A program made the position numbers and the translations under genes. A stretch of DNA of 64,000 nucleotides from Pantoea sp. CCBC3-3-1 (GTDB lineage: Bacteria > Pseudomonadota > Gammaproteobacteria > Enterobacterales > Enterobacteriaceae), in the NCBI RefSeq assembly GCF_007981265.1, contig NZ_CP034363.1:4216001-4280000 (forward strand), in the 5' to 3' direction. Position 1 is the first letter of the stretch. Each line of letters opens with the position of its first letter. Positions 28,870 to 47,154 of the stretch are shown piece after piece. The notes under the pieces are model-generated. The model worked only from the letters and a program-made list of their open reading frames with translations. It was not told the DNA's origin and made no database searches.

Positions 28870-30126
28870 TTAACCCTGTCTGTATTCATTATATTTCCGC
28901 TGCGTGGCAATATGATCGGCAATATATTTTGCATCGTGCCAAACGCCCCAAATAAAAGTAGAGCCGCGACGTGAAAGCCAGGGTAAACCTAAGAAATAAA
29001 CACCCGGCTCGCTGGAAACACCGCGCTGATGCTTAGGTTTATTGTTTTTGTCAAAGGCATCAACCTTAAGCCAGCTGTAATCCGTGACGTAACCTGTTGC
29101 CCAGATAATAGTCGTAATCCCCGCCGCCTTAATATCCAGTTCAGTGCGTGGATGGATCATACACGCCGGATCGGGCAGGAAATGGCGGGCTGTGGGTTCA
29201 GGCGGTAAATCCAGTCCGTTACGGGCGATATAGGCATCGGCCGCATCCAGCAGCGAAAGATAGTTGGCATCGCCTTTGGCAATATTATCGACCAGATCGG
29301 GCTGGAACGTGATTTTTCCGTCGGCAAAAGATTCGGTCAGGCCAACCAGGTTAACGCCCTGGTGCGCCAGCTGGCGGAAATCAACGGTGTGGCCGCCACG
29401 CGCACCGCTGACCGCAATGGTCACGTGCTCTTTTCCAGGTACGCTGGCCGAGGCATCCCACAGGCCCAGCACGCCCAGCCACCAGCAAAAATCACGCTGA
29501 CGATAGGCGCGCGGCGGGCGATCGTGCGGTCCGACAGAAAGATAAACCGTTTTGCCAGCACGCTGAAGTTCATCGGCAATCTGCACCCCTGATGAGCCAG
29601 CGCCAACAATCAACACCGCGCCTTCAGGCAGCTGCTGCGGGTTGTAATAGTGCGCAGAATGCAGCTGATGTAAGCCGTCATTTTCAGGCGCAATGGCCGG
29701 GATCACCGGACGCTGGAACGGGCCAGTCGCGGCAACAATATGTCGCGCCAGAATAACGCCTTCCGAGGTTTCGATGGTGAATCCCGGACGGCCTTCATTC
29801 CGTACCACGCTTTTCACTTCCACTCCGGTACGAATGGGCGCAGAGAATTTTTCCGCATAGGCTTTGAAATAATCCGCCACCTGTTCTTTCGGTACAAAAC
29901 CATCGGCAGAAATATTGGAAAATTCCATATTGGGGAAACGGTCATGCCAGGCTGGCCCATTAGCAACCAGCGAATCCCAACGTCCTGAACGCCATGCTTC
30001 GGCAATGCGATTTTTTTCCAATACCAGATGACGGATGCCTGCTTTAGTCAGATGTTCGCTCATGGCGACACCCGCCTGCCCTGCACCGACTACCAACGTA
30101 TCAATTTCGGTTATTTCAACGGTCAT
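28870..30126 (-). CDS. Flavin-dependent monooxygenase-like NAD(P)/FAD oxidoreductase
   Basis: The protein has 418 residues from ATG 30126, which has AAGGA seven bases upstream; a GTG one codon earlier is possible. It has two dinucleotide-binding motifs: GAGQAG at 14-19 for FAD and GAGSSG at 175-180 for NADPH. This arrangement is that of class B flavin monooxygenases and CzcO-like oxidoreductases. An IIWATGYVTDYSWL motif near residue 335 fits the family ATG motif. The substrate is unknown. It is the first gene of the accessory block, convergent with ygiN, and 245 bases from the ABC genes, so it is probably its own unit. It holds both electron-transfer cofactors itself and would not need the flavin reductase at 40645. 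Confidence 0.78.
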   Translation of the reverse strand: MTVEITEIDTLVVGAGQAGVAMSEHLTKAGIRHLVLEKNRIAEAWRSGRWDSLVANGPAWHDRFPNMEFSNISADGFVPKEQVADYFKAYAEKFSAPIRTGVEVKSVVRNEGRPGFTIETSEGVILARHIVAATGPFQRPVIPAIAPENDGLHQLHSAHYYNPQQLPEGAVLIVGAGSSGVQIADELQRAGKTVYLSVGPHDRPPRAYRQRDFCWWLGVLGLWDASASVPGKEHVTIAVSGARGGHTVDFRQLAHQGVNLVGLTESFADGKITFQPDLVDNIAKGDANYLSLLDAADAYIARNGLDLPPEPTARHFLPDPACMIHPRTELDIKAAGITTIIWATGYVTDYSWLKVDAFDKNNKPKHQRGVSSEPGVYFLGLPWLSRRGSTFIWGVWHDAKYIADHIATQRKYNEYRQG

Positions 30127-30374
30127 CACTGCATCCTTAAATAAGGGCTAAACTATCCCCTAATTATTCGGGGCTTCGACATGCGCCAAGGTTATTGAAC
30201 TACGCCAGCCGGGTAAATTAGTAAAAAACGAGTCCCTGAAGATAAAATAAAGAGGCAGCGGATAACGCTACAATAACGCGCTAAACCAGATACCCTTCTT
30301 TTATTTAATCTATGGGATTTCCTCCCGCGTGAAATAGTCCCCACGGGCAAGAAAGCGGGCTGATATTTAAAGCA

Positions 30375-31412
30375 TCAGGCAGAAAGCAGCAAACTTTGCT
30401 GCACATCCCATCCCAGCGATACGCGATCGCCGATTTTTTCACAGCACAGGCCACTGCTGCGCACGACAAATCGTGTTCCCTCGGCAAGTGCCACGACAAG
30501 TCGCGTTTCCGAACCGGCATAAATGCTTTCGCAAATTTCCCCTTCCAGCGCCGCCGTCCCCGGTTGCTGAATACGGATATGTTCAGGACGGATGACCAGC
30601 GAGGCCTGTCCCTGCATGGCGGATTTGTCCGGCAAGGCGAAAGTCCCCTGTTTTGTGATCAGCTGACCGGCACGCACCTCACCGCGAAGGATATTGGAAA
30701 GGCCAATAAATCCGGCAACAAAGGTCGAACGAGGGCGCTGATAGATCGCCTGTGGCGTATCGATCTGCACGATCCGCCCTTCGTTCATCAGGCAGATCCG
30801 ATCGGAGAGCGCCAGCGCTTCTTCCTGATCGTGCGTAACAAAAACGATCGTCGCGCCCGATTCACGGTGAATGCGTTTGATCTCTATCTGCATCGTCTCG
30901 CGCAGCTGGCGATCCAGTGCGCCCAGCGGCTCATCCATCAGGATGATCCCCGGCTGATAGACGAGGCACCGCGCCAGCGCAACACGCTGCTGTTGCCCAC
31001 CGGATAACGCTCGTGGAAAGCGCTGCGCGGCATGGCCCAGTTCTACCATTTCCAGCGCCTCTTTGACTTTACGGTTGATTTCAGCGGCGGGCAGCTGGCG
31101 CATACGCAGCGGAAAAGCCACATTTTCTTCAATCGTCAGGTGCGGAAACAGCGCGTAGTTTTGAAACACTACGCCGATATCGCGCTTGTGCACCGGCGTC
31201 CAGGTTTCGTCTTTACCATCAATCAGCAGGCGGCCTGAGGTCGGCGCTAAAAGACCGCTGATAATTTGCAACAGCGTGGTTTTCCCCGAGCCTGACGAGC
31301 CGAGCAGCGTCAGTAATTCACCCTTCTGCACCGTTAAATCCAGATCCTGTAACACCTTCGTCGGCCCAAAGCATTTAGCAATTTGCTCCACCTGTAACTT
31401 TACGGATGACAT
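30375..31412 (-). CDS. ABC importer ATPase, PotA-like
   Basis: This ATP-binding subunit belongs to the spermidine/putrescine/iron/thiamine (POPT-like) importer class. It has 345 residues. Walker A is GSSGSGKT (38-45), the signature LSGGQ is at 136-140 and Walker B ILMDEP at 157-162. A C-terminal TOBE-like regulatory domain starts near residue 245 (LRGEVRAG.LITKQG..). It starts 11 bases after the permease stop with AGGAGAG before the ATG. It is the last gene of the operon substrate-binding protein, permease, ATPase. Polyamine is one possible substrate, but the class is broad and the substrate is not known. Confidence 0.88.
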   Translation of the reverse strand: MSSVKLQVEQIAKCFGPTKVLQDLDLTVQKGELLTLLGSSGSGKTTLLQIISGLLAPTSGRLLIDGKDETWTPVHKRDIGVVFQNYALFPHLTIEENVAFPLRMRQLPAAEINRKVKEALEMVELGHAAQRFPRALSGGQQQRVALARCLVYQPGIILMDEPLGALDRQLRETMQIEIKRIHRESGATIVFVTHDQEEALALSDRICLMNEGRIVQIDTPQAIYQRPRSTFVAGFIGLSNILRGEVRAGQLITKQGTFALPDKSAMQGQASLVIRPEHIRIQQPGTAALEGEICESIYAGSETRLVVALAEGTRFVVRSSGLCCEKIGDRVSLGWDVQQSLLLSA

Positions 31413-31423
31413 TATTTCTCTCC

Positions 31424-33187
31424 TTACTGCGCTTCCGCTTTGCGGCGCGAACGTTCAGCGATAATGAACAACACTGTCACGACGGACAGAATAATGACTG
31501 ACGCGGCGGCCAGCGTCGGCGTTACCGACAGCAGGACGTCATCCCACATCTGTTTTGGCAGCGTCTGCTTCACGCCGCCGCCTACAAACAGCGCGACCGT
31601 TAGCTCTTCAAAAGAGTTAAGGAAGCCGAAGATAAAGGCGGCGACCAGGCTGCTTTTGATCAGCGGCAAGGTTATTTCACGCAGGGTGCGCCAGCGGTCA
31701 GCGCCAAGGGTTTTCGCTGCCTGATCCAGCCGCCAGTCATACCCTTTGAAGGTGGTCAGGATAATGACAAACACCACCGGAATGGCCATTACCGTATGGC
31801 CAAGGATGATGCCGAGATCCGATCCCACCAGGCCGATAGTGGCAAACAAATAGAACAGCGAAACGGCGGTGACGATGTTGGGAACGATCATCGGCAACAG
31901 GAAAGTCATGACCACCAGACTGCCGGATTTTCCCTGGTGCCGCGCCAGCCCATAAGCTGCTGCCCCTGCAATCGCAACCGACAGCATGCCGGTGACCAGC
32001 GCGATGCCGAACGAACGGATCGTGGCACCCGTCCAGATTGGCGATCCCAGATAGGTTTCCATCCAGCGTAACGAAAAGCCCGGCGGGGGAAATTGCAGGA
32101 AGCTGGAGCTGCTGAACGCCATTGGCAGGAACGAAACCACTGGTAACACCAAAACCAGAATCACCCATACGCTGAACAGCGGCAGCAGCCAGCCGAGGCG
32201 CGGACGTCCCGGGATCGCGGCCAGCATGTTGCCCAGCCAGTCGGAAATCTTTGCGGCCCCAGCGGTGATCCCCTGGCCCACACGCCGGATATGTTTGCCG
32301 CTGGCGTGGCTTTCTCCACCTGATATCGCCGACATGCCAAACAGCTTGTCGTAACAGAAGCAAACTACCAGCGTGGTCACCAGCAGCAGCATCGCCACCG
32401 CGCCCGCCAGCCGCCAGTTCAGCAGCTGCTGAACTTGAGTGATCAACAGCTGGCCTATCACCGAATCCTGTGGGCTACCGAGCAGCGCCGGGGTGATAAA
32501 GAAGCCCAGCGAGCCGATAAAGATCAGCAGGCAGGCCGCCACCACGCCCGGCATGGAAAGGGGAAAGAAAATACGCCAGAAGCTTTGCGCACGTGACGCA
32601 CCCAGCGTATGACCGGCGCGTATCAGACCGTGATCGATGCCGGTCATGGTCGGCAGCATGGTGATAATCGCCAGCGGCAGCATGCTGTGTGCCATGGCAA
32701 AGACCACCGCACCACGCGTGTAAAGCACATTCAGCGGCTGGTCGGCTCCCATCGACATCAGGATTTCAGAGAGGATCCCGCGCCGCGACAGCAGCACCAG
32801 CCAGGCGAAGTTTTTCAGTAAAGCGCTGGTCCAGAACGGCAGTAAAATCAGCCACATTAGCCGTCGGCGGACGTTTTCACTGCGTTGCGAAAGCCAGTAC
32901 GCTACCGGATAGCCGACCAGCAGGCAGGCGAGCGTGGTTTGCAGGGCAATAGCGAAGGTGTTAATCATCACCTTCACGTAGATGCCCGCGCCAAACATTT
33001 GGCGCCAGATATCCAGCGAAAAGCCGCCGTCGCTGTTCTGGAAACTCAGTAGCATTAGCTTCAAAGTGGGCCAGGCGAGAAACAGGGCCAGGAATAACAG
33101 GCCTGGCGCGGTCAGCCACAAGGGATGCCAGCGTCGCGTTGCTGTCGGCATACGTTTTTTCTCGTCAGATGTTGCAAGATCGGTCAA
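31424..33187 (-). CDS. ABC importer permease with two fused membrane domains
   Basis: This single 587-residue polypeptide holds both membrane domains of a PotB/PotC-type importer. The first spans about residues 22-284, with an EAA loop around 191-212 (AGHTLGASRAQSFWRIFFPL). The second spans about 330-580, with an EAA loop around 490-511 (AAKTLGADRWRTLREITLPL). A hydrophilic linker of about 45 residues joins them. Fused permeases are known in the FbpB/ThiP group. The start is TTG 33187 with GGAGAAG upstream; ATG 33151 is an alternative without a good site. It lies between the binding protein and the ATPase. Confidence 0.86.
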   Translation of the reverse strand: MTDLATSDEKKRMPTATRRWHPLWLTAPGLLFLALFLAWPTLKLMLLSFQNSDGGFSLDIWRQMFGAGIYVKVMINTFAIALQTTLACLLVGYPVAYWLSQRSENVRRRLMWLILLPFWTSALLKNFAWLVLLSRRGILSEILMSMGADQPLNVLYTRGAVVFAMAHSMLPLAIITMLPTMTGIDHGLIRAGHTLGASRAQSFWRIFFPLSMPGVVAACLLIFIGSLGFFITPALLGSPQDSVIGQLLITQVQQLLNWRLAGAVAMLLLVTTLVVCFCYDKLFGMSAISGGESHASGKHIRRVGQGITAGAAKISDWLGNMLAAIPGRPRLGWLLPLFSVWVILVLVLPVVSFLPMAFSSSSFLQFPPPGFSLRWMETYLGSPIWTGATIRSFGIALVTGMLSVAIAGAAAYGLARHQGKSGSLVVMTFLLPMIVPNIVTAVSLFYLFATIGLVGSDLGIILGHTVMAIPVVFVIILTTFKGYDWRLDQAAKTLGADRWRTLREITLPLIKSSLVAAFIFGFLNSFEELTVALFVGGGVKQTLPKQMWDDVLLSVTPTLAAASVIILSVVTVLFIIAERSRRKAEAQ

Positions 33188-33293
33188 GGAACTCTTCTCC
33201 CAAAGAACGGGTGACGCTCAGGCGTCACCGCAGACGGCAGGCAAACTCAACGCTCAGGGAATACAGGTCGGGTGCAAAGCACCCTCACCCGGA

Positions 33294-34379
33294 TTAACTC
33301 ATGACCCATTTTTCAAAGCGTTCGGTCAGCGCGACCTGATTATCGCCCCAATAATCTGCGCCCAGCAGTGCCAGCCCCTGGATATGGTCCGGTGCCGTCG
33401 GCAACAGAGCCGCTTTTTTCTTGTCGATAAAGTCGTAGGCTTTGATGTTGGTCGGCCCGCACGCCAGATCGTTGGTGTACAGCGACTGACGTTTCGCATC
33501 CATACAGAAATGGATAAATCTGCGTGCTGCTTCCAGCTTCGGACTGCCGTGCGGAATACTGAAACCATCGATGTTATAAAGACCCTGGCCCCAGGCGATA
33601 TTGGCTGGCGTACCGGCATCAATCGCGGTCTGGGCGCGAGTGCTCCAGATACTCATCATGTCCAGCTCGCCGCTTTGCAGCATCTGCGTGGCCTGCGCGC
33701 CGCTGGTCCACCAGACATCAATGCTTTTGCGGATTTTATCGAGGCTGCGGAAAGCCCGATCGACATCTAGCGGATAGAGTTTTTTTGGATCGACGCCGTC
33801 GGCCATCAGCGCCAGTTCCAATGTACAGACCGGGCTGCGCCACAGGCCGCGACGGCCATTGAATTTGGCGGTGTCCCAGAAATCTGTCCAGTTGGTAGGT
33901 GCCGTTTTGCCGTTAAAGGCGTCAGTCCGGTAGCCTAATGCCAGTGCGTAAATACTGACACCGCCAAACTGAGAGGTAATCGAACCTTTCACATAATTCT
34001 GCGGATCCGGCACTTGCAGATGCAGATCTTCCAGATACGGTTTCGGCATTTTGTTCAGGCGCACCAGGTGCTCCGGGTTGAGCAGCGCCACGTCAAACAG
34101 GTAGTTTTTGGTATCCACCATCATCTGGAACTGCGGTACCGGGTCGGGACCCAGCACCGTATTAATGATTTTGATGCCGGTCTCTTCTTCAAACGGCTTG
34201 TAAAATGCTTTGCCAAATCCCGTGCCGTAAGGGCCGCCCACGTCGGCGACGGTCAGAGTGGTGACTTCCGCCGCCCGCGCCGGACGACTGATGATCATCG
34301 GGGCAACGGCGGCGGTAACGGCGGCCCCAATCCCCAGCTTCAGCGCATCACGACGGGTATACGTTTTGTTCTCTTTCAT
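33294..34379 (-). CDS. ABC importer substrate-binding protein, PotD-like, Tat-exported
   Basis: This periplasmic binding protein has 361 residues. Its leader holds a twin-arginine motif (TRRDALKLG) and a hydrophobic stretch ending in Ala-Arg-Ala-Ala, so export by Tat is likely. The mature protein resembles the spermidine/putrescine-binding PBP2 group (VADVGGPYGTGFGKAFYKPFEEETGIKI, WTDFWDTAKFNGRRGLW, DMMSIWSTRAQTAIDAG). Polyamine-binding acidic residues were not identified, so the ligand is open. It is the first gene of the importer operon, following the GH3 gene after about 60 bases on the same strand. Confidence 0.85.
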   Translation of the reverse strand: MKENKTYTRRDALKLGIGAAVTAAVAPMIISRPARAAEVTTLTVADVGGPYGTGFGKAFYKPFEEETGIKIINTVLGPDPVPQFQMMVDTKNYLFDVALLNPEHLVRLNKMPKPYLEDLHLQVPDPQNYVKGSITSQFGGVSIYALALGYRTDAFNGKTAPTNWTDFWDTAKFNGRRGLWRSPVCTLELALMADGVDPKKLYPLDVDRAFRSLDKIRKSIDVWWTSGAQATQMLQSGELDMMSIWSTRAQTAIDAGTPANIAWGQGLYNIDGFSIPHGSPKLEAARRFIHFCMDAKRQSLYTNDLACGPTNIKAYDFIDKKKAALLPTAPDHIQGLALLGADYWGDNQVALTERFEKWVMS

Positions 34380-34438
34380 CCTGGTTCCCCTGCATCACGA
34401 AAAGTTTTAATGAGCCGACACGGATGCCGGTGATTTTT

Positions 34439-36808
34439 CTACGCTTGTTCCTGCTCTTTAATGGCAAGGTTAACTTCCGCAATCAGCTGGTCGATTTCCT
34501 CCGCGGTAAAGCGCTGGCGGAAACGGCGGTCAAAGGTGGTGAAAATACTGAAGAATGAGTTTTTGCAGTGTTCCAGCATGCGGTCCGCATCGGCGGCGTT
34601 CACCGACAGTTGCACCTGCAAGAAGCGGTTGAAATAGTCACGCGCCAGCGGATTTTCCAGCACGAAAATTGGCTGCGTATCACGCGAGATGAGTCGGTAC
34701 TTTCCGACCTTACTCTCACAGTGCAGACTGCCCTCAAGCGGCAGGTCTCGCGAGTTTGGCCCGACGCGAAGCAACACGTCACCCGCTTCAAGGATCCACT
34801 GCTGGCGACCCGTGTCGTAGTAGCGTAAGTCGGCAGCGGGAACGGTCAGCGCTACGCGACGCTGTTCACCCGCCTGTAATTCAACTTTGCAGAACGCACG
34901 TAGCTCCTGCTCGGCCCGCGAGCGCGAAGATGTCTGATAGTGGCTGTAGAGCTGGCAGATCTCTTTTCCGGCACGCGAGCCGGTATTGCTTAGCGTAAAG
35001 CTGACCGTCACTTCTTCACCATCGCGCAGGCTATCGCGGTCCAGCTCAATATCGCTATAGGCAAACTGACTGTAACTGAGGCCATAACCGAACGGGAACA
35101 ACGGCTCGACGTTACGGGCGTCGTACCAGCGATAGCCGACGAAGATCCCTTCGCTGTAGTAATGACGGCCATTTTCGCCGGGGTAGCTGTGCCAGCCGGG
35201 AATGTCTTCAATACGCTGAGGGAAAGTCACCGTTAGCTTGCCGCAGGGATTCACCACACCGAACAGTACGTCTGCCAGACCGCCGCCCATCGCCTGACCG
35301 GCGTAGAAGGTTTCCACGACGGCACTGACCCGATCCAGCCACGGCATCACCACCGCATCAGGATTAGCCAGCACCACAATCACGTTGTCGTTGACCGCTG
35401 CCAGCGCGCGGATTAATTCATCATGACCCTGCTGCAAACCCAGCGTGCGACGGTCTGATCCTTCGCCGTCATAACCATCTTCGCTGTTAACAAACACCAC
35501 CACGCGATCGGCCTGGCGCGCCGCTTTACAAGCTTCTTCGCGCAATGACGGCCGATCAGCCACTTCATCGCTGGTGCCCTGACACCAGTTCAGGGTGACG
35601 TTGTCGCCGCAATGTTTGCGGATTTCGTCGTAGGGAATATCCACCTGCGTCGGCGTCGTGGTGGCGCAGCCCGATCCCTGGATCACGGGCTTCCTGGCGC
35701 CTTCACCGACAATCAGCAGATGACGGCAGCTTGCGGCTTCCAGCGGCAGAGCCTGATTGCTGTTTTTTAGCAACACGATGGATTCGGCCACCATCCTGCG
35801 CGCCAGCAGATGATGCGCATCGGTTTCCATCGGGGTGCCGGGTTGTTCCGCGTCTTTCGCTTTGTGGATCAGGTTGAGGATACGTTCTGCTGAACGCTCG
35901 GCCTGCGTACGTGGCACTTCTCCCGCTTTTAGCGCCCTGACCAGACTCGCCCTGCGCGTTTCGCTTTCTGGCATGTCGAGATCGTTGCCGGCCATCAGCG
36001 AGAGCGGGCGATCTTTAATTCCATGCCAGTCTGCTACCACCACGCCTTCAAAGCCCCATTCCTGACGGAGCACCTCCTCCAGCAACCAGCTGTTTTCGGC
36101 GGTATGTACGCCGTTTAGTCGGTTATAGGAACTCATGACCGTCCAGGGCTGCGACTGTTTGATGGCGCGCTCAAAGCCGCGCAGATAAATTTCCCGCAGC
36201 GCACGCTCATCAACGATCGAGTTCATGCTGGTGCGCTCAACTTCTGAATTGTTACAGGCAAAATGCTTTAAAGATGCGCCAACGCCCTGCCGTTGCAGAC
36301 CGTTAATTACGCCAGTCGCCATCTCGCCGCTGATTAAGGGGTCTTCGGAATAGTATTCGTAGCTGCGGCCGCCCAGTGGCGTACGGCGGATGTTGATGCC
36401 AGGCCCGAGCAGCAGGTTAACGCCCAGATGCTGGCACTCTTTACCCAGCGCTTCACCCAGCGTCTGTGCCAGATTCACGTCCCAGCTACAGGCAAAACTG
36501 GACCCGTTGGGGAAACAGGTGGCGGGGCGCATCGTTCCCCAGGCCACTTCCACATCTTTCGCCCGCTGGTTAACCACGTTCAGGAAGGCTTCGAAGTCCT
36601 GGCCCCCCTTCTCATCCTGTTCAATTTGCTGGATGGAGTAGCGCACGCCGTAGGTGCCATCGGTCATAACAATATGCGGGATCCCCAGCCGGGCATTGGC
36701 TTCGGTTTTCCACATGCCGTGACCGCTAAGAATGTCGCCCAGCTCTTCCGGCGTCATCGATTTGGCCAGAGATAAAAATTTCTCGTGCTGAGATAAAACA
36801 GTGCTCAT
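34439..36808 (-). CDS. Glycoside hydrolase family 3, cytosolic beta-glucosidase-like
   Basis: This enzyme probably cuts terminal beta-linked sugars from a small glycoside. It has 789 residues from ATG 36808, which has AGGAAAA nine bases upstream; an upstream frame lacks it. No signal peptide is present, so it acts in the cytosol on imported substrate. The catalytic nucleophile is Asp260 in GVVVADWHG, and KHFACNNSE at 181-189 is the binding motif. A GH3 C-terminal domain and a fibronectin-III-like domain (about 590-700) follow. About 80 extra residues after that, helical and ending near EEIDQLIAEVNLAIKE, are unusual for the family. It lies upstream of the importer genes and is divergent from the LysR regulator. 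Confidence 0.85.
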   Translation of the reverse strand: MSTVLSQHEKFLSLAKSMTPEELGDILSGHGMWKTEANARLGIPHIVMTDGTYGVRYSIQQIEQDEKGGQDFEAFLNVVNQRAKDVEVAWGTMRPATCFPNGSSFACSWDVNLAQTLGEALGKECQHLGVNLLLGPGINIRRTPLGGRSYEYYSEDPLISGEMATGVINGLQRQGVGASLKHFACNNSEVERTSMNSIVDERALREIYLRGFERAIKQSQPWTVMSSYNRLNGVHTAENSWLLEEVLRQEWGFEGVVVADWHGIKDRPLSLMAGNDLDMPESETRRASLVRALKAGEVPRTQAERSAERILNLIHKAKDAEQPGTPMETDAHHLLARRMVAESIVLLKNSNQALPLEAASCRHLLIVGEGARKPVIQGSGCATTTPTQVDIPYDEIRKHCGDNVTLNWCQGTSDEVADRPSLREEACKAARQADRVVVFVNSEDGYDGEGSDRRTLGLQQGHDELIRALAAVNDNVIVVLANPDAVVMPWLDRVSAVVETFYAGQAMGGGLADVLFGVVNPCGKLTVTFPQRIEDIPGWHSYPGENGRHYYSEGIFVGYRWYDARNVEPLFPFGYGLSYSQFAYSDIELDRDSLRDGEEVTVSFTLSNTGSRAGKEICQLYSHYQTSSRSRAEQELRAFCKVELQAGEQRRVALTVPAADLRYYDTGRQQWILEAGDVLLRVGPNSRDLPLEGSLHCESKVGKYRLISRDTQPIFVLENPLARDYFNRFLQVQLSVNAADADRMLEHCKNSFFSIFTTFDRRFRQRFTAEEIDQLIAEVNLAIKEQEQA

Positions 36809-37210
36809 GCCAGTGTTTTCCTGTGAGATGAAAGCGGCGAGCAGTCGCCACTGTTGCGCTGGCATTCAATATGGCCCGGTTAGAAACCGCGGCGAAAGAA
36901 GTAAAATGTTTGTCACTGGAGTTAAAAAAACTATCCAGCTGCGCAGGATTCCCTGCGTCATAAATAACGCAACGGAGAGCAGAGAAAAGCCAGAAACTGA
37001 TGTTTTTTTGCCCTGAAATAGCGCCACTGCCCAGCCAGGTCGCAAACGATTGCACCCTCCCAGCGCAATTCGCCTGCTGTACAGTAAGTTATCAGCGAGC
37101 TAGCGCGTATTTCCTGTGGCACAGTTATTGCAACTGCTGCCTGCATCGCTTTTTTGTTCTTACGGAAAGCTCTGACATAACCAAATACTAATCAGAGAGA
37201 TCACCTGCAC
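36809..37210. other. Divergent intergenic region between GH3 and LysR genes
   Basis: These 402 bases contain no supported gene. A promoter for each direction and LysR-type operator sites (T-N11-A half-palindromes) are expected by position, but no single one stands out. ORFs across it on both strands are short and show no family resemblance. Confidence 0.5.
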
Positions 37211-38158
37211 ATGGCGCATTTCACCCTCCGACAGCTTAAATATTTTGTTACCGTGGTTGAGCATCGCAGCATTGCCGAGGCATCACGCCATCTGCATATC
37301 GCTCAGCCTTCCATTTCAACGGCGATCAAAGGCCTCGAAGAGAGTTTTGAACAGCAGCTTTTTATCCGTCATCACGCGCAGGGCGTCTCGCTGACGCCCA
37401 GCGGACGCCGGTTTTATGAAAAAGCCGCCGAGCTGCTGAGAATGTCCCGGCAGTTTGAACAGAATGCCCGGGCGGATAATGATTTGGTGGCAGGCACGCT
37501 TTCCGTCGGCTGTTTTGAAACCGCCGCGCCGCTGTATATGCCAAAGCTTATTGCCGGTTTCAAAAAGCTCTATCCCAATATTGAAGTGCAGATCTATGAC
37601 GGCGAGCAGCACGAGTTAACCGACGGTTTGCATCGCGGACGCTTTGATATGGCAATCCTTTACCGCCATGAGCTGGACAACAGTATTCATGCCGAACAGC
37701 TGAAAGCACCACAAAAGCCTTATGCGCTGCTGCCTGCCGATCACCCGCTGGCCTTGCGCAGCAGCATTAGCCTGGAAGAACTGAGCCACGAGCCGATGAT
37801 CTTGCTGGACGTCGTGCCGAGCCGGAACTATTTCCTGGATATCTTCAAGCAGAAGGGGCTTTCACCGAAGGTGGCCTTCAGTTCGCCGTCGATTGAGATG
37901 GTACGCTGCATGGTCGGTCAGGGATTTGGCTTTTCGCTACTGGTGACCCGCCCCTTCCCGGACTTTACCTATGACGGTAAGCGCGTGAAGCGGGTCACCA
38001 TTCGCGATGAGATGGAAGGATCATGCCTGGTGATGGCGCATTTACGCCACGCTGAACCGACTCGCCCCACGCAGTTGTTTATGGATTACTGCCGGGCACA
38101 GGAACTGACGCCGGAGCATATCAGCGAATCTGAATTGCCACCGCTTTCAGTAGCTTAA
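37211..38158 (+). CDS. LysR-family transcription regulator
   Basis: This LysR-type regulator has 315 residues. The N-terminal winged helix (about 1-62) contains LRQLKYFVTVVEHRSIAEASRHLHIAQPSIS; the effector domain follows from about residue 90 (GTLSVGCFETAAP, then ILYRHELDNSIHAEQL). The ligand is unknown. It is divergent from the GH3-importer operon and convergent with the deacylase operon: its stop overlaps the M20 gene stop by four bases. Its position makes it the likely regulator of both, which is inference from context. Confidence 0.87.
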   Translation: MAHFTLRQLKYFVTVVEHRSIAEASRHLHIAQPSISTAIKGLEESFEQQLFIRHHAQGVSLTPSGRRFYEKAAELLRMSRQFEQNARADNDLVAGTLSVGCFETAAPLYMPKLIAGFKKLYPNIEVQIYDGEQHELTDGLHRGRFDMAILYRHELDNSIHAEQLKAPQKPYALLPADHPLALRSSISLEELSHEPMILLDVVPSRNYFLDIFKQKGLSPKVAFSSPSIEMVRCMVGQGFGFSLLVTRPFPDFTYDGKRVKRVTIRDEMEGSCLVMAHLRHAEPTRPTQLFMDYCRAQELTPEHISESELPPLSVA

Positions 38159-39309
38159 ACGATTTGCAGCCGATGGCAGAGACGGAGCAGAAACGCATCG
38201 CACTCTGCCAGCTGCTGCACACTGACAAATTCATCCGGCTTATGCCCCTGTGCCATTGAGCCAGGGCCGCAAACCAGGGTAGGAATACCATGCTGCTGGA
38301 ACAGGCCACCCTCGGTACCAAAAGCCACGGTGCTTAACGCTGCCGGTGAGGGTAGTAGCGCCATAACTTCATCTGTCGCTGCGGTGATTTGCGTTTGCAG
38401 GCCGGGATAGTGGCTCAGCGGACTAAAGACGATGGTGCAATCAGGCGAAATGCGCTGCATCTGCGGCACCAGCTCACGTTCACACCACGCCGTGATTTCA
38501 TCAACTATCGGTTGCGCATCTACATCCGGCAGCGTACGAATTTCAAAATCAAACTGGCAGGAAGCAGGCACGATATTTAACGCCTCGCCACCGCGAATGA
38601 CGCCTGTCTGCAGGGTGGAAAAAGGGGGATCGAAGGCGACGTTTTTCTCCTGCTGCAACCGCTCTGCCAGCGTCATTAACCGCTGGATAATCTGCACGGC
38701 GTATTCAATCGCGTTCACGCCCTGTGGCGTATAGGCCGAATGGCTGGCATAACCCGTGACAGCGCAGCGCAGCGCGATTTTTCCTTTGTGCCCGAGAACT
38801 GGACGCATCTCCGTGGGTTCGCCGACAATACAGACGGCAGGCAGTACCGGCAGACGATCGATATGCGCCAGCAGCCCCGGCACGCCCTTGCAGCCTACTT
38901 CTTCATCGTGACTGAACGCCAGCCATACCGGCTGACGCAGCGGCCGCGCCACCAGTTCTGGCACCAGCGCCAGCACCGCCGCCAGCCAGCTTTTCATATC
39001 CGCCGCACCCCGACCATATAACCGGCCATCGGCCTCGCGCAGAATAAACGGATCGCTTTGCCAGTGTTGCCCCTCAACCGCTACCACATCAGTATGGCCT
39101 GACAAGACAATCCCGGGCAGCTCTTGCGGGCCGATGACCGCCAGCAGATTAGCCTTTTGACCGCTACCATCGATCAAAACCTGGCAACTTACGCCATATT
39201 CCGCCAGATAGTCGCGGACGTAGTTAATCAGTGCCAGATTGCTCTCGCTGCTAACGGTGTTAAAGGCGATCAGTTCGGCCAGCAATGCCCGCGTGCTGAG
39301 TTTACTCAT
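38155..39309 (-). CDS. M20-family deacylase, ArgE-like
   Basis: This metal-dependent amidohydrolase has 384 residues from ATG 39309. Metal-ligand motifs are intact: His72 and Asp74 in GHTDVV, Asp104 in GRGAADMK, Glu136/Glu137 in HDEEVG, and GEPTEM later. Length and motifs resemble acetylornithine deacetylase (ArgE), so it probably removes an acyl group from an amino-acid-like compound. A housekeeping ArgE would normally sit with argCBH, so a catabolic paralogue is more likely. The start overlaps the end of the DUF1028 gene by eight bases (ATGAGTAA). The gene belongs to the operon rid-DUF1028-M20. Confidence 0.85.
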   Translation of the reverse strand: MSKLSTRALLAELIAFNTVSSESNLALINYVRDYLAEYGVSCQVLIDGSGQKANLLAVIGPQELPGIVLSGHTDVVAVEGQHWQSDPFILREADGRLYGRGAADMKSWLAAVLALVPELVARPLRQPVWLAFSHDEEVGCKGVPGLLAHIDRLPVLPAVCIVGEPTEMRPVLGHKGKIALRCAVTGYASHSAYTPQGVNAIEYAVQIIQRLMTLAERLQQEKNVAFDPPFSTLQTGVIRGGEALNIVPASCQFDFEIRTLPDVDAQPIVDEITAWCERELVPQMQRISPDCTIVFSPLSHYPGLQTQITAATDEVMALLPSPAALSTVAFGTEGGLFQQHGIPTLVCGPGSMAQGHKPDEFVSVQQLAECDAFLLRLCHRLQIV

Positions 39310-39976
39310 CGCCAGGAACACCGTAACTCGGCGCTTCCGCCGGATTAACAGCGCGAGTCAGGTACGCTTCGCTCTGCGGTTGCCACATCTGCCAGATGCG
39401 CGCCAGCTCACCAATCGCATCCTTTTCATGCCAGTCGACGCGCAGATCGGTTAGCGGCCAGCTTTCGCTACTCACCACCTTCAATCCGGCGGAATAGACC
39501 GGTCCGGCTTCGCCACCGGCTTGTAAACCAGCCTGCAAGGCAGCGATCAGCCGGTCGCCCAGCGACAGCGACGGCTCGACGCAGAATTGACTGACCATGG
39601 CCTCAATTACCTCCGCAGTGGCCAGCATATTGCCCGCCGCCACGCAGTTCAGTCCCTGGTGCTGATGGTGAGTGCCCAGCGTATGTAAGCCAGACCACAC
39701 GGCGCTCTGCCTGCTGTCCAGCACCGTCACCTGTCGCCAGTCGGCAAAAGGTTCGGCGGCCATTTCCGCTGCCAGGGCCGCTGTCGCACTTTCGCCCTGC
39801 GCCAACCGGTTGAGGATTTTCGGCCCCAGCGCAGGCAGCGTAACGTTCTGGCTTGATACCGCGCCCACGCCGCTCATCAGCCAGGGGCAACGCGCCGCTA
39901 CCGCCATGCTGGATGAACTGAGAGCAATACCGTACTGGCCGCTGCGAGGACAAAAACCGGCAATGGAAAAGGTCAT
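39302..39976 (-). CDS. DUF1028 protein (Ntn-hydrolase-like)
   Basis: The protein has 224 residues with the DUF1028 opening MTFSIAGFCPRSGQYGIALSSSSMAVAARCPW and NMLATAEVIEAM. The family is thought to have an N-terminal nucleophile hydrolase fold, but no activity is established for it. It starts one base after the rid gene stop and its end overlaps the M20 start, so the three genes are translationally coupled. This close coupling with an M20 deacylase and a Rid-family protein suggests a shared pathway on an acylated or amidated amine. Confidence 0.82.
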   Translation of the reverse strand: MTFSIAGFCPRSGQYGIALSSSSMAVAARCPWLMSGVGAVSSQNVTLPALGPKILNRLAQGESATAALAAEMAAEPFADWRQVTVLDSRQSAVWSGLHTLGTHHQHQGLNCVAAGNMLATAEVIEAMVSQFCVEPSLSLGDRLIAALQAGLQAGGEAGPVYSAGLKVVSSESWPLTDLRVDWHEKDAIGELARIWQMWQPQSEAYLTRAVNPAEAPSYGVPGDE

Positions 39977-39977
39977 G

Positions 39978-40397
39978 TTATGCCTCCGGGATCACGGCAA
40001 TCACGTCAATTTCCACCAGCCACTGCGGCTGCGCCAGCGCAGAAACAACCAGCCCGGTGGAGATGGGGAAAACGCCTTTCAGCCACTTGCCCACTTCCAG
40101 ATAGACCGGTTCGCGATAGCGCGGATCGATAATATAAGTGGTGGTTTTCACTATATGGCTGAGGTCGCTACCCGCTTCTTCCAGCAGCTGCTTGATATTT
40201 TTCATCGCCTGCTCTGCCTGCAATCCTGCATCGCCCAGCCCAATCAGATTGCCGTCAAAATCGGTGCCGACCTGGCCGCGAACATAAACGGTATTCCCGG
40301 CACGGACCGCCTGACAGAGGTCATTATTCAGCGCCTGATTAGGATAGGTATCTTTGGTATTAAACATACGGATGCGGGTATGGGTCGGTTGACTCAT
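39978..40397 (-). CDS. Rid-family protein lacking the catalytic arginine
   Basis: This protein has 139 residues of the YjgF/YER057c/UK114 (Rid) fold: GNTVYVRGQVGTD, QAEQAMKNIKQLLEEAGSDLSHIVKTTTYI and VEIDVIAV. RidA removes reactive enamines and imines with Arg105 (PARS in E. coli). Aligned from the shared VEIxxIA end, the corresponding segment here reads PISTG, with no arginine. Rid groups without that arginine are known and do not have imine deaminase activity. It is the first gene of the rid-DUF1028-M20 operon, divergent from the flavin reductase gene. Confidence 0.85.
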   Translation of the reverse strand: MSQPTHTRIRMFNTKDTYPNQALNNDLCQAVRAGNTVYVRGQVGTDFDGNLIGLGDAGLQAEQAMKNIKQLLEEAGSDLSHIVKTTTYIIDPRYREPVYLEVGKWLKGVFPISTGLVVSALAQPQWLVEIDVIAVIPEA

Positions 40398-40474
40398 CGT
40401 GGGTTCCTTACAGATTAAAGAGGAGACGGAAGCCGCTTTGTTTGCCGCTAACGCCCAGGACAGAGCAAACTCAT

Positions 40475-40567
40475 TTTTGGTGCCTGTGGGGCAGAAAATA
40501 AATAAGGATTTTTATTTGCAGGACTTAGGGGAAAACTGGCCTTAGCGAACCTCGTTTTTTTGGTGCC
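40475..40567. repeat. Direct repeat TTTTGGTGCC, two copies
   Basis: Ten identical bases occur at 40475-40484 and 40558-40567, 83 bases apart, in the 247-base divergent region between the rid gene and the flavin reductase gene. The spacing is eight helical turns. A regulator site is possible but unproven. Confidence 0.4.
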
Positions 40568-40644
40568 AGAGCCTAAAAAAATACACATTTATCTTTCACG
40601 TTGGTCATGAACATACTCGAGCCTGACTAACTGAGGACCTGGCT

Positions 40645-41157
40645 ATGCATTCCATTGTTAAAGAGTTACCGCTGATTACTCGGGATGCGTTTGTTAGCGC
40701 GATGGAAAACTGCGTAAGCGGCGTGTATCTCGTCGCCAGCGATGGCGCGGACGGCAAGGCGGGCGGCACACTCAACAGCCTGACCTTCGTTTCTGCCGCG
40801 CAGCGTCTGCTGATGATCTGCCTGCACCGTGACAGTCCGCTGTGCCCGGCGATTGAGCAAAACGGCGGCTTCAGCATCAATGTGCTCTCTGAATTACAAA
40901 AACCCCTCGTCCAGACTTTCGCCACGTCCGGTCGTAATGCGCAGGCTTTTGATTCGCCTGACTGGGGCGAAAGCCCCGAAGGCCATCCACTGCTGCACGG
41001 TGCGGTTGCCAACTTTGACTGCCAGCTGACAAATCAGCTGGTGCTAAACAGCCATGTAATGCTGATTGGCATGGTGAAAAACGTGCATTGTCACCCCGGC
41101 ATTCCGCTGGCAAGGCAGGCGCGACAGTATGTGCTGATCCAGCGGGATCAGCCTTAA
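40645..41157 (+). CDS. Flavin reductase-like protein (FMN-binding split barrel)
   Basis: This 170-residue protein has the flavin-reductase (DIM6/NTAB) fold: AFVSAMENCVSGVYLVAS, then TLNSLTFVSAAQRLLMICLHRDSPL, then GGFSINVLSE. The family reduces FMN with NAD(P)H and supplies it to a partner monooxygenase (as RutF, HpaC). No two-component monooxygenase is in the window. The start follows GAGGA. It probably leads a plus-strand operon with the following transport genes and nucleoside hydrolase; the next gene starts 85 bases on. Confidence 0.78.
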   Translation: MHSIVKELPLITRDAFVSAMENCVSGVYLVASDGADGKAGGTLNSLTFVSAAQRLLMICLHRDSPLCPAIEQNGGFSINVLSELQKPLVQTFATSGRNAQAFDSPDWGESPEGHPLLHGAVANFDCQLTNQLVLNSHVMLIGMVKNVHCHPGIPLARQARQYVLIQRDQP

Positions 41158-41242
41158 GCACCCGGCTTTATTGCTGTATTGCTGTGAACAGGCTGCCCGA
41201 AGAGGCCAATAGAATTCATTACACCTGCACCGGAGAGTAAAC

Positions 41243-42064
41243 ATGACCCACCTGCGGATTAAACAGATCGCTCAATGCTTAACGCTGACCCTGCTGGCCT
41301 CCACCGCTTATGTTCAGGCGGCGGTAATGACCCCGGGTAAACTGACCGTCGGCAGCGACATCACTTTTCCACCGTATGAATACCTTAACGATAAGGCACC
41401 TGCCGGTTTCGATATTGAGTTTATTGATGGCGTGGCGAAGGCAATGAAGCTGGAACCGCAATATATCGACACCCGCTTTACCAATCTCATCCCAGGTTTA
41501 CAGGCAAAACGCTATGAGCTGATCGCCTCCGCGCTGTTTATTACGCCCGAACGCAGCAAAGTGATCGAGATGATCCCTTATCTGAAAACCGGCGAATCAT
41601 TGATCGCCCTCAGCAACAGCAGCTTTAAACCGAAAAAGCCGGAAGCGCTGTGCGGTCATAAAGTCGGTTCGATGCAGGGCACCTACTGGCTGGAAAAGCT
41701 CCATGCTCTTTCCGCTGATTACTGCGTAAAGCAGGGACAGAAGCCGATTGAAGTCAGTGAATTTTCAACCGATCCTCAAGTCACGCAAGCAATGCTTTCC
41801 CATGCGGTAGAAGTGCAGATGACCGATGCGGCGGTTGCCAGCCAGGTAGTGGAAAAAATGAAGGGCCGCCTGGCCATAACGTCCGACACGCTGCTCTATC
41901 CGGTATTGGTGGGACTAGGCGTCAGCAAAGCTAACCCGGCATTCAAACAGCAGTTAACCGACGGTATTGCAGCATATAAAGCCAGCGGCCAGTACGCCAC
42001 CCTGTTGCAAAAATACCATCTTGCTGAACCGCAGGACGTCGATATTCAGGCTCTGAAACAGTAA
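41243..42064 (+). CDS. ABC importer substrate-binding protein, polar amino acid type
   Basis: This periplasmic protein has 273 residues, a signal peptide (LTLLASTAYVQA) and the family-3 binding pattern: KLTVGSDITFPPYEYLND, GFDIEFIDGVAKAM and LIPGLQAKRYELIASAL. The ligand is probably an amino acid or derivative. ATG has GGAGAG upstream. The fused permease-ATPase starts 21 bases after the stop, so the whole importer is two genes. Confidence 0.86.
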   Translation: MTHLRIKQIAQCLTLTLLASTAYVQAAVMTPGKLTVGSDITFPPYEYLNDKAPAGFDIEFIDGVAKAMKLEPQYIDTRFTNLIPGLQAKRYELIASALFITPERSKVIEMIPYLKTGESLIALSNSSFKPKKPEALCGHKVGSMQGTYWLEKLHALSADYCVKQGQKPIEVSEFSTDPQVTQAMLSHAVEVQMTDAAVASQVVEKMKGRLAITSDTLLYPVLVGLGVSKANPAFKQQLTDGIAAYKASGQYATLLQKYHLAEPQDVDIQALKQ

Positions 42065-42085
42065 TCCTGCGACGGGAGAACAAGC

Positions 42086-43612
42086 ATGACTTTTGACTGG
42101 AATTACTTACTGAGTCTGTTTACCGACACAGACTTTTGGCTGGCGAGCTGGACGGTTTGCAAACTGAGCCTGGCAAGCTGGGCGATCAGCATTGTGCTGG
42201 GCTTTGTGCTGGCGCTGGGCAAACAGGCGTCCCGGCGCTGGTTGTCCGTTCCCGCCCGCGTTTATATCTGGCTGTTCCGCAGCCTGCCCCTGCTGGTGCT
42301 GCTGATTTTTGTTTATAACCTGCCGCAAGCGATGCCAGCGTCTTCCGCTCTGCTCAGCGATCCTTTCTGGGCAGGGCTGATTGCGCTGGTGCTGAGCGAA
42401 ACAGCCTATATTGCTGAGATCCATCGTGGTGGCTTGTTATCCATTCCAAAAGGGCAGCGTGAAGCTGCGCATGCCCTCGGCCTGCGCTATGCCGGGATTC
42501 AGTGGCGGATCGTGATTCCACAGGCGATCCGCGTGGCGCTGCCTTCGCTGGCAAATGAATATATCTCTATCGTGAAGCTCAGCTCGCTGGTATCGGTTAT
42601 TTCACTGACCGAAATCCTGATGGTGGGCCAGCGTCTCTATTCGCAAAACTTCCTGGTCATGGAGACGATGGCGGCAGTCGCGTTTTACTATGTGCTAATC
42701 GTCACGGTGTTTGATTTTCTGCTGAAAAGGCTGGAGCGCTATCTGGATGTTACCCAGCGCAACACAACTCGACCTCTGGATCCGGCGCTACGGGCTGTCG
42801 CCTCTCAGCCGTTGCCTGCTACGGTGCGCCCCACGCTTGCACAGACTATCCCGGCGTTACAGGCCTCTAAGCTACACAAAGCCTATAACAATGTAGAGGT
42901 GCTGGGTGCGGTTAGCCTGCAAATTCAGCCTGGTGAAGTGGTTTCAGTTATCGGTCCGTCCGGCTCAGGTAAAACGACGCTAATCCGCCTGCTGAACGGT
43001 CTGGAGCAGATTGATAACGGTGAAATTCGCATTAACGGTCAGCCGTTTATTCAGCTAAGCCAACATGGGTCGCAAAAACCCCGCTTTATTGAGCATGATG
43101 AACACCGGCTGAACATTGGCATGGTGTTCCAGAGCTTCAACCTGTTCCCGCATTTAACGGTCATGAACAATCTGCTACTGGCCCCTCGCTACCATCGCAC
43201 CGCGCCGCTGGATGAACTGAAACATCAGGCTTGCGTCATGCTGCAAAAAGTCGGCATGCTGGACCAGGCGATGAAGTATCCGCATCAGCTTTCTGGCGGG
43301 CAGCAGCAGCGTGTGGCAATCGCCAGGGCGCTAATGATGCGGCCGCAAATTATGCTGTTCGACGAACCCACTTCCGCTCTCGATCCTGAAAAAGTGAACG
43401 AGGTGCTACAGGTCATTGAAACGCTGGCCGGAGAAGGCATCACCATGGTGATTGTCACCCATGAGATGAACTTCGCTTTCAAGGTGTCGGACCGCATTGT
43501 GTTTATGGAGAAAGGTCGCGTGGTTTGTGATGATGCACCACAGATATTGCAGGATGGAGAGCATCCACGAATCAAAGCCTTCCTGAAAGACGTTAATTTT
43601 GCCACGGGTTGA
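42086..43612 (+). CDS. Fused permease-ATPase of a polar amino acid ABC importer
   Basis: This 508-residue protein joins two subunits that are normally separate. Residues 1-225 form the permease, with the EAA-type loop at about 112-147 (EIHRGGLLSIPKGQREAAHALG). Residues about 265-508 form the ATPase, with Walker A at 290-297 (GPSGSGKT), signature LSGGQ at 402-406 and Walker B IMLFDEP at 422-428. A linker of about 35 residues joins them. Such permease/ATP-binding fusions are known in the amino-acid importer group. All catalytic motifs look intact, so a homodimer could build the complete transporter. Confidence 0.88.
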   Translation: MTFDWNYLLSLFTDTDFWLASWTVCKLSLASWAISIVLGFVLALGKQASRRWLSVPARVYIWLFRSLPLLVLLIFVYNLPQAMPASSALLSDPFWAGLIALVLSETAYIAEIHRGGLLSIPKGQREAAHALGLRYAGIQWRIVIPQAIRVALPSLANEYISIVKLSSLVSVISLTEILMVGQRLYSQNFLVMETMAAVAFYYVLIVTVFDFLLKRLERYLDVTQRNTTRPLDPALRAVASQPLPATVRPTLAQTIPALQASKLHKAYNNVEVLGAVSLQIQPGEVVSVIGPSGSGKTTLIRLLNGLEQIDNGEIRINGQPFIQLSQHGSQKPRFIEHDEHRLNIGMVFQSFNLFPHLTVMNNLLLAPRYHRTAPLDELKHQACVMLQKVGMLDQAMKYPHQLSGGQQQRVAIARALMMRPQIMLFDEPTSALDPEKVNEVLQVIETLAGEGITMVIVTHEMNFAFKVSDRIVFMEKGRVVCDDAPQILQDGEHPRIKAFLKDVNFATG

Positions 43613-43635
43613 ATTCACGCCCAACGGAGAAGGTG

Positions 43636-44568
43636 ATGAGAAAGATAATTTTTGATACGGATATTGGCGTTGATGACGCTTTTGCGCTGGCTTACGCGGC
43701 AAAAACGCAAAATATACTGGGGATCACTACGGTTTTCGGCAATGTGGCGGTGGGTCAGGCGGTTAAAAATGCCAAATTGTTCTCACGGGAGATTGGCCTG
43801 AACGTCCCGATTTTTCGCGGTTGCTCGCGCCCAATGGGGCTGGCACAGGTCAGTAGTGCCGCAGCGGTGCATGGCGGCGATGGGCTGGGAGATGCGTTAG
43901 CTAATCCTTTCGATGAACAGGCTGATAATGCCGTCAGTTTTATCATTGATACCGTAAAAGGGCTGCCGGGAGAAGTGACGCTGGTGGCTATCGGCCCCCT
44001 GACCAATATCGCTACCGCTATTAATCTCGCCCCGGAGATCATCCCGCTGGTAAAAGAGGTGGTAATTATGGGCGGTGCTTTCGGCACGCACGGCCACGCC
44101 GGTAACGTAACGCCGCACAGCGAATTCAATATCTGGAAAGATCCGCACGCGGCCGATCAGGTACTCTCTTCGGCTCTGCCAGTGGTGCTGCTGCCGCTGG
44201 ATGTTACTCATGAGGTGCCGATCACCGGTGAAGATATCCGTGGGCTAAACCTGCCAGTGTTAACCGCTATTTCAAAAGGTTATCTGCGTTACAGCCTGGA
44301 AAAAGAAGGTTTTGAAGGCATGACGCTGCACGATACCTTGACCATCTCGTGGCTGGATCATCCCGAGTTCTTTACGACAGTGAAATCCCCGCTCAGGGTG
44401 GTCTGCGAAGGCATTACTCTTGGACAGACGTTGCGGCAGCTCACGCAGTTAGCGTCTCGCTTCAATCCTTTTGCGCATTGTCACCAGCAAACAGTGTGTC
44501 TGGGCGTGGATACGGCGAAGGTGAAAGCCGCTTTTCTGGACAGCCTGCGCGTCAATCCTGCGGCCTGA
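43636..44568 (+). CDS. Nucleoside hydrolase, IunH family
   Basis: This enzyme splits the N-glycosidic bond of nucleosides to ribose and base. It has 310 residues from ATG 43636, which has GGAGAAGG upstream; the frame extends earlier without a start signal. The calcium-binding aspartates are Asp7, Asp9, Asp13 and Asp14 (DTDIGVDD). ALGPLT-like AIGPLTNIATAI, EVVIMGGAFGTHGHAGNVTPHSEFN and the fold match pyrimidine or general ribonucleoside hydrolases. E. coli carries rihA beside the amino acid importer gltIJKL, a similar pairing. It is the last gene of the block, next to parE. Confidence 0.87.
   Translation: MRKIIFDTDIGVDDAFALAYAAKTQNILGITTVFGNVAVGQAVKNAKLFSREIGLNVPIFRGCSRPMGLAQVSSAAAVHGGDGLGDALANPFDEQADNAVSFIIDTVKGLPGEVTLVAIGPLTNIATAINLAPEIIPLVKEVVIMGGAFGTHGHAGNVTPHSEFNIWKDPHAADQVLSSALPVVLLPLDVTHEVPITGEDIRGLNLPVLTAISKGYLRYSLEKEGFEGMTLHDTLTISWLDHPEFFTTVKSPLRVVCEGITLGQTLRQLTQLASRFNPFAHCHQQTVCLGVDTAKVKAAFLDSLRVNPAA

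Positions 44569-44627: not shown

Positions 44628-47154
<2,527 letters not shown>

Follow-up and report, generated by a model that had tools for sequence, protein, structure and literature searches.

The closest described counterpart of the genes treated here is reportedly the hin2 operon, hinFLHG accompanied by hinK, of the histamine pathway of Pseudomonas putida U and P. aeruginosa (work attributed to de la Torre, 2018, and Wang, 2021). We compared with it a gene cluster lying between ygiN and parE in a 64,000-nucleotide stretch of Pantoea sp. CCBC3-3-1 (RefSeq assembly GCF_007981265.1, contig NZ_CP034363.1, positions 4,216,001 to 4,280,000 of the forward strand), hereafter the window, whose own coordinates are used throughout. 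Passages of three publications (PMC8231116, PMC6467879, PMC10912698) state that hinFLHG (PA5393-PA5390) of Pseudomonas converts imidazole-4-acetate (ImAA) to aspartate, HinF being a flavin adenine dinucleotide (FAD) monooxygenase (EC 1.14.13.5), HinL an enamine deaminase, HinH and HinG amidases (EC 3.5.1.8 for HinG), and HinK a LysR regulator responsive to imidazole-4-acetate. Part of one of them (PMC6467879) also describes Brevibacterium strains that grow on histamine and combine a histamine oxidase with hin homologues. We propose that the Pantoea cluster is probably a catabolic system that takes ImAA and most likely accepts sugar conjugates of it as well. Judging from its genes, the core probably acts on ImAA, while we hold the chances that the cluster also strips conjugates to be even.

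A hin-like core in the window

All four F-L-H-G gene types are present in the window. The Rid-family gene (39978..40397, PF01042), the DUF1028 gene (39302..39976, PF06267) and the M20 deacylase gene (38155..39321), of the L, H and G types, lie contiguously on the minus strand, Rid and DUF1028 being separated by 1 base and DUF1028 and M20 overlapping. The F type, a nicotinamide adenine dinucleotide (phosphate) (NAD(P))/FAD monooxygenase (28870..30129, minus strand, Pfam Pyr_redox_3), stands at the end of a GH3 glycosidase operon, and the LysR gene (37211..38158, plus strand) forms a transcription unit alone. The preliminary description of this DNA, which began the cluster at 30375, had left the monooxygenase out: it lies outside 30375..44568, on the same strand as the ATPase gene of an ATP-binding cassette (ABC) importer and 245 bases beyond it, and follows that gene in all five of the same-genus genomes compared that have the GH3 unit (L191-L195; loci are cited by such numbers). 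The contiguous order monooxygenase-Rid-DUF1028-M20 is found in L030, L031, L047 and L163.

The monooxygenase, a predicted imidazole-4-acetate monooxygenase, shares 76% identity along 415 residues with P0165, a flavin monooxygenase cluster of P. aeruginosa (2288 sequences) that we infer to be PA5393; against its nearest NCBIfam model, TIGR04046 (MSMEG_0569 flavin oxidoreductases), it scores 370.1 bits, below the curated cut-off of 498.35. The LysR protein, a predicted imidazole-4-acetate sensor, has its best PDB matches in 3fzv (420 bits) and 6m5f (419 bits), the next entry listed scoring 112 bits; we take these two entries to be HinK/PA0218, an identity that the printed sources did not confirm. 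The M20 protein scores above the cut-offs for NF005710 and TIGR01892 (acetylornithine deacetylase). With a cluster position like that of hinG, it is most likely an N-formyl-aspartate deformylase acting on a pathway intermediate, rather than a remover of acyl groups from imported conjugates, as had been suggested.

DUF1028, of which a genome search found a single match in this strain, keeps Thr2 in 101/101 alignment rows. Its model superposes on HslV and proteasome beta subunits, with residue 2 (Thr2) on their residue 1 (Thr1); in this predicted fold it has the features of an N-terminal nucleophile (Ntn) hydrolase, namely an Ntn fold and an N-terminal nucleophile after Met removal. Its position points to HinH, and we regard it as a putative N-terminal-threonine amidohydrolase. 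The Rid protein, HinL-like by position, is without the conserved catalytic arginine of the RidA imine deaminases: in 94 of 97 rows, the site at which 2csl and 1oni have Arg carries Ser instead. A catalytic role of the RidA arginine is stated in a passage of PMC4433059.

As judged from their sequences, the monooxygenase, Rid, DUF1028, M20 and LysR proteins match in family the products of hinF, L, H, G and hinK, and the core is likely the already described half of the histamine pathway of Pseudomonas that leads from ImAA to aspartate. The earlier statement that no described pathway has this gene set therefore stands for the whole set but not for the core, which resembles hinFLHG/hinK. The window and hin2 have in common the monooxygenase, Rid, DUF1028 in the place of H, and M20, and the window has a LysR close to the presumed HinK structures; beyond these, the window adds a GH3 glycosidase, a nucleoside hydrolase, a flavin reductase and two ABC importers.

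Recurrence of the cluster in other genomes

DUF1028 matches were found in 24 of 149 genomes of the same family, and 20 of the 26 DUF1028 places were compared, beside that of the strain itself. Among named DUF1028 loci, 80 of 95 relatives were kept and scored with the window proteins. Near DUF1028 in these 80 loci were Rid (76), LysR (63), M20 (46), the monooxygenase (42) and an HpaB-like oxygenase (12); one or the other oxygenase was found in 54 loci, and the monooxygenase, Rid, M20 and LysR stood together in 21. The monooxygenase is undercounted because the 10 kb flanks stop short in L048-L053: four of these six genomes carry it, as seen in L191, L192, L193 and L195 (the same genomes as L049, L048, L051 and L053, respectively). 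As a control, we took GH3 or nucleoside hydrolase relatives that lie outside hin clusters; none of the 11 regions surrounding them had a match above 60 bits to the monooxygenase, Rid, DUF1028 or M20.

The larger set of GH3, importer 1, LysR, M20, DUF1028 and Rid recurs in L048-L053, L191-L195, L163 (a further genome of the family) and L128 (the Pantoea plasmid pPAT9B01); in L128 and L163 the monooxygenase adjoins Rid-DUF1028-M20 instead of the ATPase. L193 and L195 have the same flanks as the window. No parE, ygiN or mdaB match was found beside the set in L191 and L192, and no parE in L050 and L052, where the monooxygenase end falls outside coverage. Since the set recurs with different flanks, the cluster is more than a product of chance and is co-inherited. 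The preliminary description had already supposed a catabolic system, and had held that independent regulation and a lack of co-occurrence in other genomes would mark the cluster as accidental; the recurrence speaks against an accident.

In alphaproteobacteria, GH3 and a hin-like core occur together on plasmids (L129, L130, L134, L136-L140) and in R. rhizogenes (L086). The nucleoside hydrolase is annotated in the clusters of L134 and L137, and full-length but unannotated in L138. Among plasmid GH3 matches, 14 of the 25 listed (542 records in all) were examined, of which 9 are in a hin context and 5 are not. GH3 frames are split or incomplete in some of L136, L139 and L140 (Neorhizobium galegae plasmids) and L175; in L175 (pTiB230_85), a shortened nucleoside hydrolase frame is a remnant near insertion sequence (IS) elements. 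DUF1028 itself has matches on 286 plasmid records, 105 of them named Klebsiella.

Two other surroundings of DUF1028 were seen. A different Rid-DUF1028-M20 cluster occurs on plasmids of Pantoea dispersa and Klebsiella pneumoniae (L131, L132), and also in L035, L038, L039, L041 and L042; this type comprises an ABC importer, a quinone oxidoreductase, a glutathione S-transferase (GST), dehydroquinase II-like and hydroxypyruvate reductase-like proteins and a LysR regulator, with an NAD(P)/FAD oxidoreductase standing last in L131 and L132. The loci combining DUF1028 with the HpaB-like oxygenase are L057, L066, L068, L071, L077, L080, L084, L091, L102, L116, L118 and L126; in 9 of these 12 a flavin reductase match adjoins the oxygenase, which looks like a replacement for HinF or part of a sister pathway.

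Possible enzymes of histamine use near the core

Among the neighbours in 100 DUF1028 loci, grouped in clusters named by one member each, were aldehyde dehydrogenase (23), a fumarase/aspartase-type lyase (17), Cu amine oxidase (10) and class III aminotransferase (9). These enzymes fit the histamine route, which needs such enzymes. Pathways of the 2SC/S-alkylcysteine, Rut, trigonelline and homarine type were considered and set aside, because the recurring amine oxidase, aldehyde dehydrogenase and aspartase/fumarase-type lyase neighbours favoured histamine; a literature search on homarine yielded nothing useful, and DUF1028 did not occur as a term in the open-licence papers that a search for it returned. 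The Rut pyrimidine pathway shares the Rid and flavin reductase families (RutC, RutF) with the window, but the window proteins score far below the RutC and RutF cut-offs, and no other rut gene was identified among the genes scanned.

No hinA, hinC or hinD gene was present among the genes scanned beside the window cluster. In the genome of the strain, the best of 11 matches to the class III aminotransferase of L055, used as a stand-in for HinC, which was not itself searched, is 32% identical, and no match to Cu amine oxidase (PF01179, the one amine oxidase family searched) was found. The Arthrobacter and Brevibacterium loci for histamine oxidase and hin genes have the monooxygenase, Rid, DUF1028 and LysR in common with the window; unlike the window, where none was found among the genes scanned, they often have a Cu amine oxidase, an aldehyde dehydrogenase and a fumarase/aspartase-type lyase. 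In four Arthrobacter/Paenarthrobacter loci (L112, L119, L124, L125), members of the Cu amine oxidase and aldehyde dehydrogenase families adjoin the hin core, an arrangement that a histamine oxidase combined with the ImAA branch would be expected to show.

The added hydrolases, importers and flavin reductase

Every gene that the preliminary description placed between ygiN and parE was found between 30375 and 44568, with its family identified by Pfam/NCBIfam. The gene map shows four transcription units on both strands, the first of which, on the minus strand, comprises GH3 (34439..36865), the substrate-binding protein of importer 1 (33294..34379, SBP_bac_8, with a twin-arginine-like N terminus by eye), its fused double permease (31424..33187, BPD_transp_1 in two stretches), its Pot-type ATPase (30375..31412, ABC_tran and TOBE_2) and then the monooxygenase. 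LysR makes up the second, on the plus strand, and Rid, DUF1028 and M20 the third, on the minus strand. The fourth, on the plus strand, comprises the flavin reductase (40645..41157, PF01613, RutF/HpaC-like but below those cut-offs), the amino-acid-type binding protein of importer 2 (41243..42064, SBP_bac_3), its permease-ATPase fusion (42086..43612, BPD_transp_1 and ABC_tran in one protein) and the nucleoside hydrolase (43609..44568), the last two overlapping. The divergent region between GH3 and LysR (36866..37210) has conserved blocks in an alignment of 11 rows, which include L049 and L191, of identical sequence; that between Rid and the flavin reductase (40398..40644) could be aligned in five of seven regions, two being too short. 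ParE (44628-46562) flanks the nucleoside hydrolase on the right, and a further family 3 solute-binding protein gene lies to the left of mdaB/ygiN (26880-27647, minus strand).

The GH3 glycosidase is without an evident signal peptide by eye. Its closest solved sequence is the beta-glucosidase 7ms2 (628 bits), and it has a candidate nucleophile, the Asp in VVADW, and a candidate acid/base in GYDGEGSDR. In a tree of 23 rows whose root is not known, a 98/96 branch separates the 15 hin-context copies, which come from Erwiniaceae, Rouxiella and rhizobia, from the 8 others; L130, L136, L137 and L140 (GH3 frame split or incomplete) and L215/L216 are omitted from it. GH3 matches were also sampled at two levels, in 394 genomes from the order with E up to 1e-150 and in 398 from the phylum with E up to 1e-220; each sample gave six matches, four of them common to both. 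In these small samples, selected by similarity like those of gene context, only the strain itself and G374 (73% identity) have GH3 in a hin context among the matches examined; the relatives L169-L171, L215 and L216 (46-50% identity) do not, and the context of G315 was left out.

The nucleoside hydrolase (PF01156, 263.7 bits), for which we predict cleavage of ribosyl-imidazoleacetate, shares its family and its metal and catalytic motifs, retained in an alignment examined by eye, with the ribonucleoside hydrolases RihA and RihC. It differs from them in standing within a hin cluster and in falling below their equivalog cut-offs, with 186.4 bits against 382 for RihC, its best NCBIfam model, and 163.1 against 433 for RihA. 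Where E. coli RihC has DTDPG, it has DTDIG, a motif also present in six examined relatives outside hin clusters. In the tree, it groups (99/99) with relatives outside hin clusters, while the rhizobial type forms a separate group (100/100). These separate groups, the 32% identity between the two types and the non-hin relatives suggest two separate acquisitions, and we conclude from the sequences that the nucleoside hydrolase most likely joined hin-type clusters twice.

Importer 2 is also present in hin clusters without GH3, such as L043, L044, L047 and L196, and so probably has no fixed link with the handling of conjugates. No HpaB-like oxygenase was identified in the window cluster as a partner for the flavin reductase.

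Discussion

The families, gene order, conservation and catalytic-residue patterns observed here, the predicted fold of DUF1028 and the printed functions of the hin genes and ligand of HinK in Pseudomonas suggest the following route, whose intermediates, and the division of steps between H and L, are our reconstruction. The two ABC importers would bring the substrate into the cell, where the cytosolic GH3 would remove a sugar, and the nucleoside hydrolase an N-linked ribose, to give free ImAA; that both enzymes act on ImAA conjugates is likewise our supposition. ImAA would be sensed by the HinK-like LysR, and its imidazole ring oxidised by the HinF-like monooxygenase. DUF1028 (HinH), as an N-terminal-threonine amidohydrolase, would open the ring to N-formimino-aspartate, Rid (HinL) would convert this to N-formyl-aspartate and ammonia, and M20 (HinG) would release formate and aspartate. 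The import and stripping of glycosylated or ribosylated small molecules, proposed earlier, would be in keeping with the GH3, the nucleoside hydrolase and the two importers. Casimiroedine is a natural imidazole glucoside. No open-licence paper was found that joins imidazole-4-acetic acid with a nucleoside hydrolase, and among the papers listed in looser searches none was relevant to GH3, to the nucleoside hydrolase or to imidazole glycosides of plants. Both hinF and hinH are named along with histamine in PMC8231116, PMC6467879 and PMC8921697. The riboside of ImAA, an excreted end product, is well established as a metabolite of histamine; passages of PMC2219991 and PMC11432521 record it from human urine and a cell culture.

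Several observations weigh against this proposal. The orthology of the core to the hin genes is deduced from order, family and closeness to the P. aeruginosa protein. The Rid-DUF1028-M20 module also occurs with other partners (L131, L132 and the HpaB variant), so the core may not be specific for ImAA everywhere, and the LysR of the rhizobial cluster shares no more than 34% identity with that of the window. No nucleoside hydrolase was seen in the GH3-hin clusters L049/L191, L128, L129, L130 and L163, and its frames are shortened in the N. galegae plasmids L136, L139 and L140, the L140 match being annotated. Of ten other matches to the window hydrolase in the order, the six examined lie outside hin clusters, so the family has roles in other settings too. 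The hydrolase tree came with warnings of long branches, and we therefore rely on its two-group split and on identity, not on finer placement. No clear part in the route falls to the flavin reductase, which was not seen in some clusters (L050, L128, L163). The best motif common to the GH3/LysR (10) and Rid/flavin reductase (5) regions had a mean of 4.0/15 mismatches against 4.4-5.2 in 10 shuffles, a null result. The strain also encodes an unlinked aldehyde dehydrogenase 44% identical to that of L055 (the HinD comparison); with this enzyme, and with only one amine oxidase family searched, use of histamine is possible.

An ordinary ImAA/histamine cluster, in which GH3, the Pot-type importer, the nucleoside hydrolase and the flavin reductase are scavenging genes co-travelling on plasmids or islands, would account for the fact that hin cores without GH3 or hydrolase are far commoner (GH3 in 7/80 and window-type hydrolase in 5/80 named loci) and that nine GH3-hin carriers are plasmids. 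We consider this unlikely, since the GH3s beside hin group apart from the other sampled GH3s across alpha- and gammaproteobacteria, the nucleoside hydrolase apparently joined twice, and the strain is without a close hinC-like aminotransferase match (by the L055 stand-in) or a PF01179 amine oxidase. Slightly less probable still is that the core acts, with hin-like chemistry, on another N-heterocycle or imidazole imported as a glycoside or riboside. The occurrence of Rid-DUF1028-M20 with other enzymes and the distance of the rhizobial LysR would fit such a substrate, but the closeness of the window LysR to 3fzv/6m5f and of the monooxygenase to the Pseudomonas protein, and a gene order in relatives equal to hinFLHG, argue for ImAA. 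An accidental cluster of independent genes, compatible with four transcription units on both strands and no common promoter motif found, is scarcely credible, being already contradicted by the co-occurrence of the set with different flanks and by the presence of GH3 together with the core on Pantoea and rhizobial plasmids.

In the literature searched, we found no paper on the additions to the described ImAA core, namely GH3 with its Pot-type importer, the amino-acid-type importer, the nucleoside hydrolase and the flavin reductase. We suggest tentatively, at somewhat less than even chances, that the cluster represents an undescribed salvage of ImAA sugar conjugates (1-ribosyl-imidazoleacetate and a glycosylated form) in plant-associated Erwiniaceae and rhizobia, with a GH3 subfamily restricted to this task and a nucleoside hydrolase acquired twice independently, the hin module having been turned from histamine to conjugated waste or plant products. 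If the proposed route is true, it would provide a function for DUF1028, still named as unknown in Pfam, and for a GH3 subfamily, would make an ImAA riboside or glycoside the predicted substrate of the nucleoside hydrolase, and would render the argE/acetylornithine deacetylase label on these M20 genes in annotated records questionable. It would also give bacteria a means of recovering the waste of histamine or imidazole glycosides made by plants.

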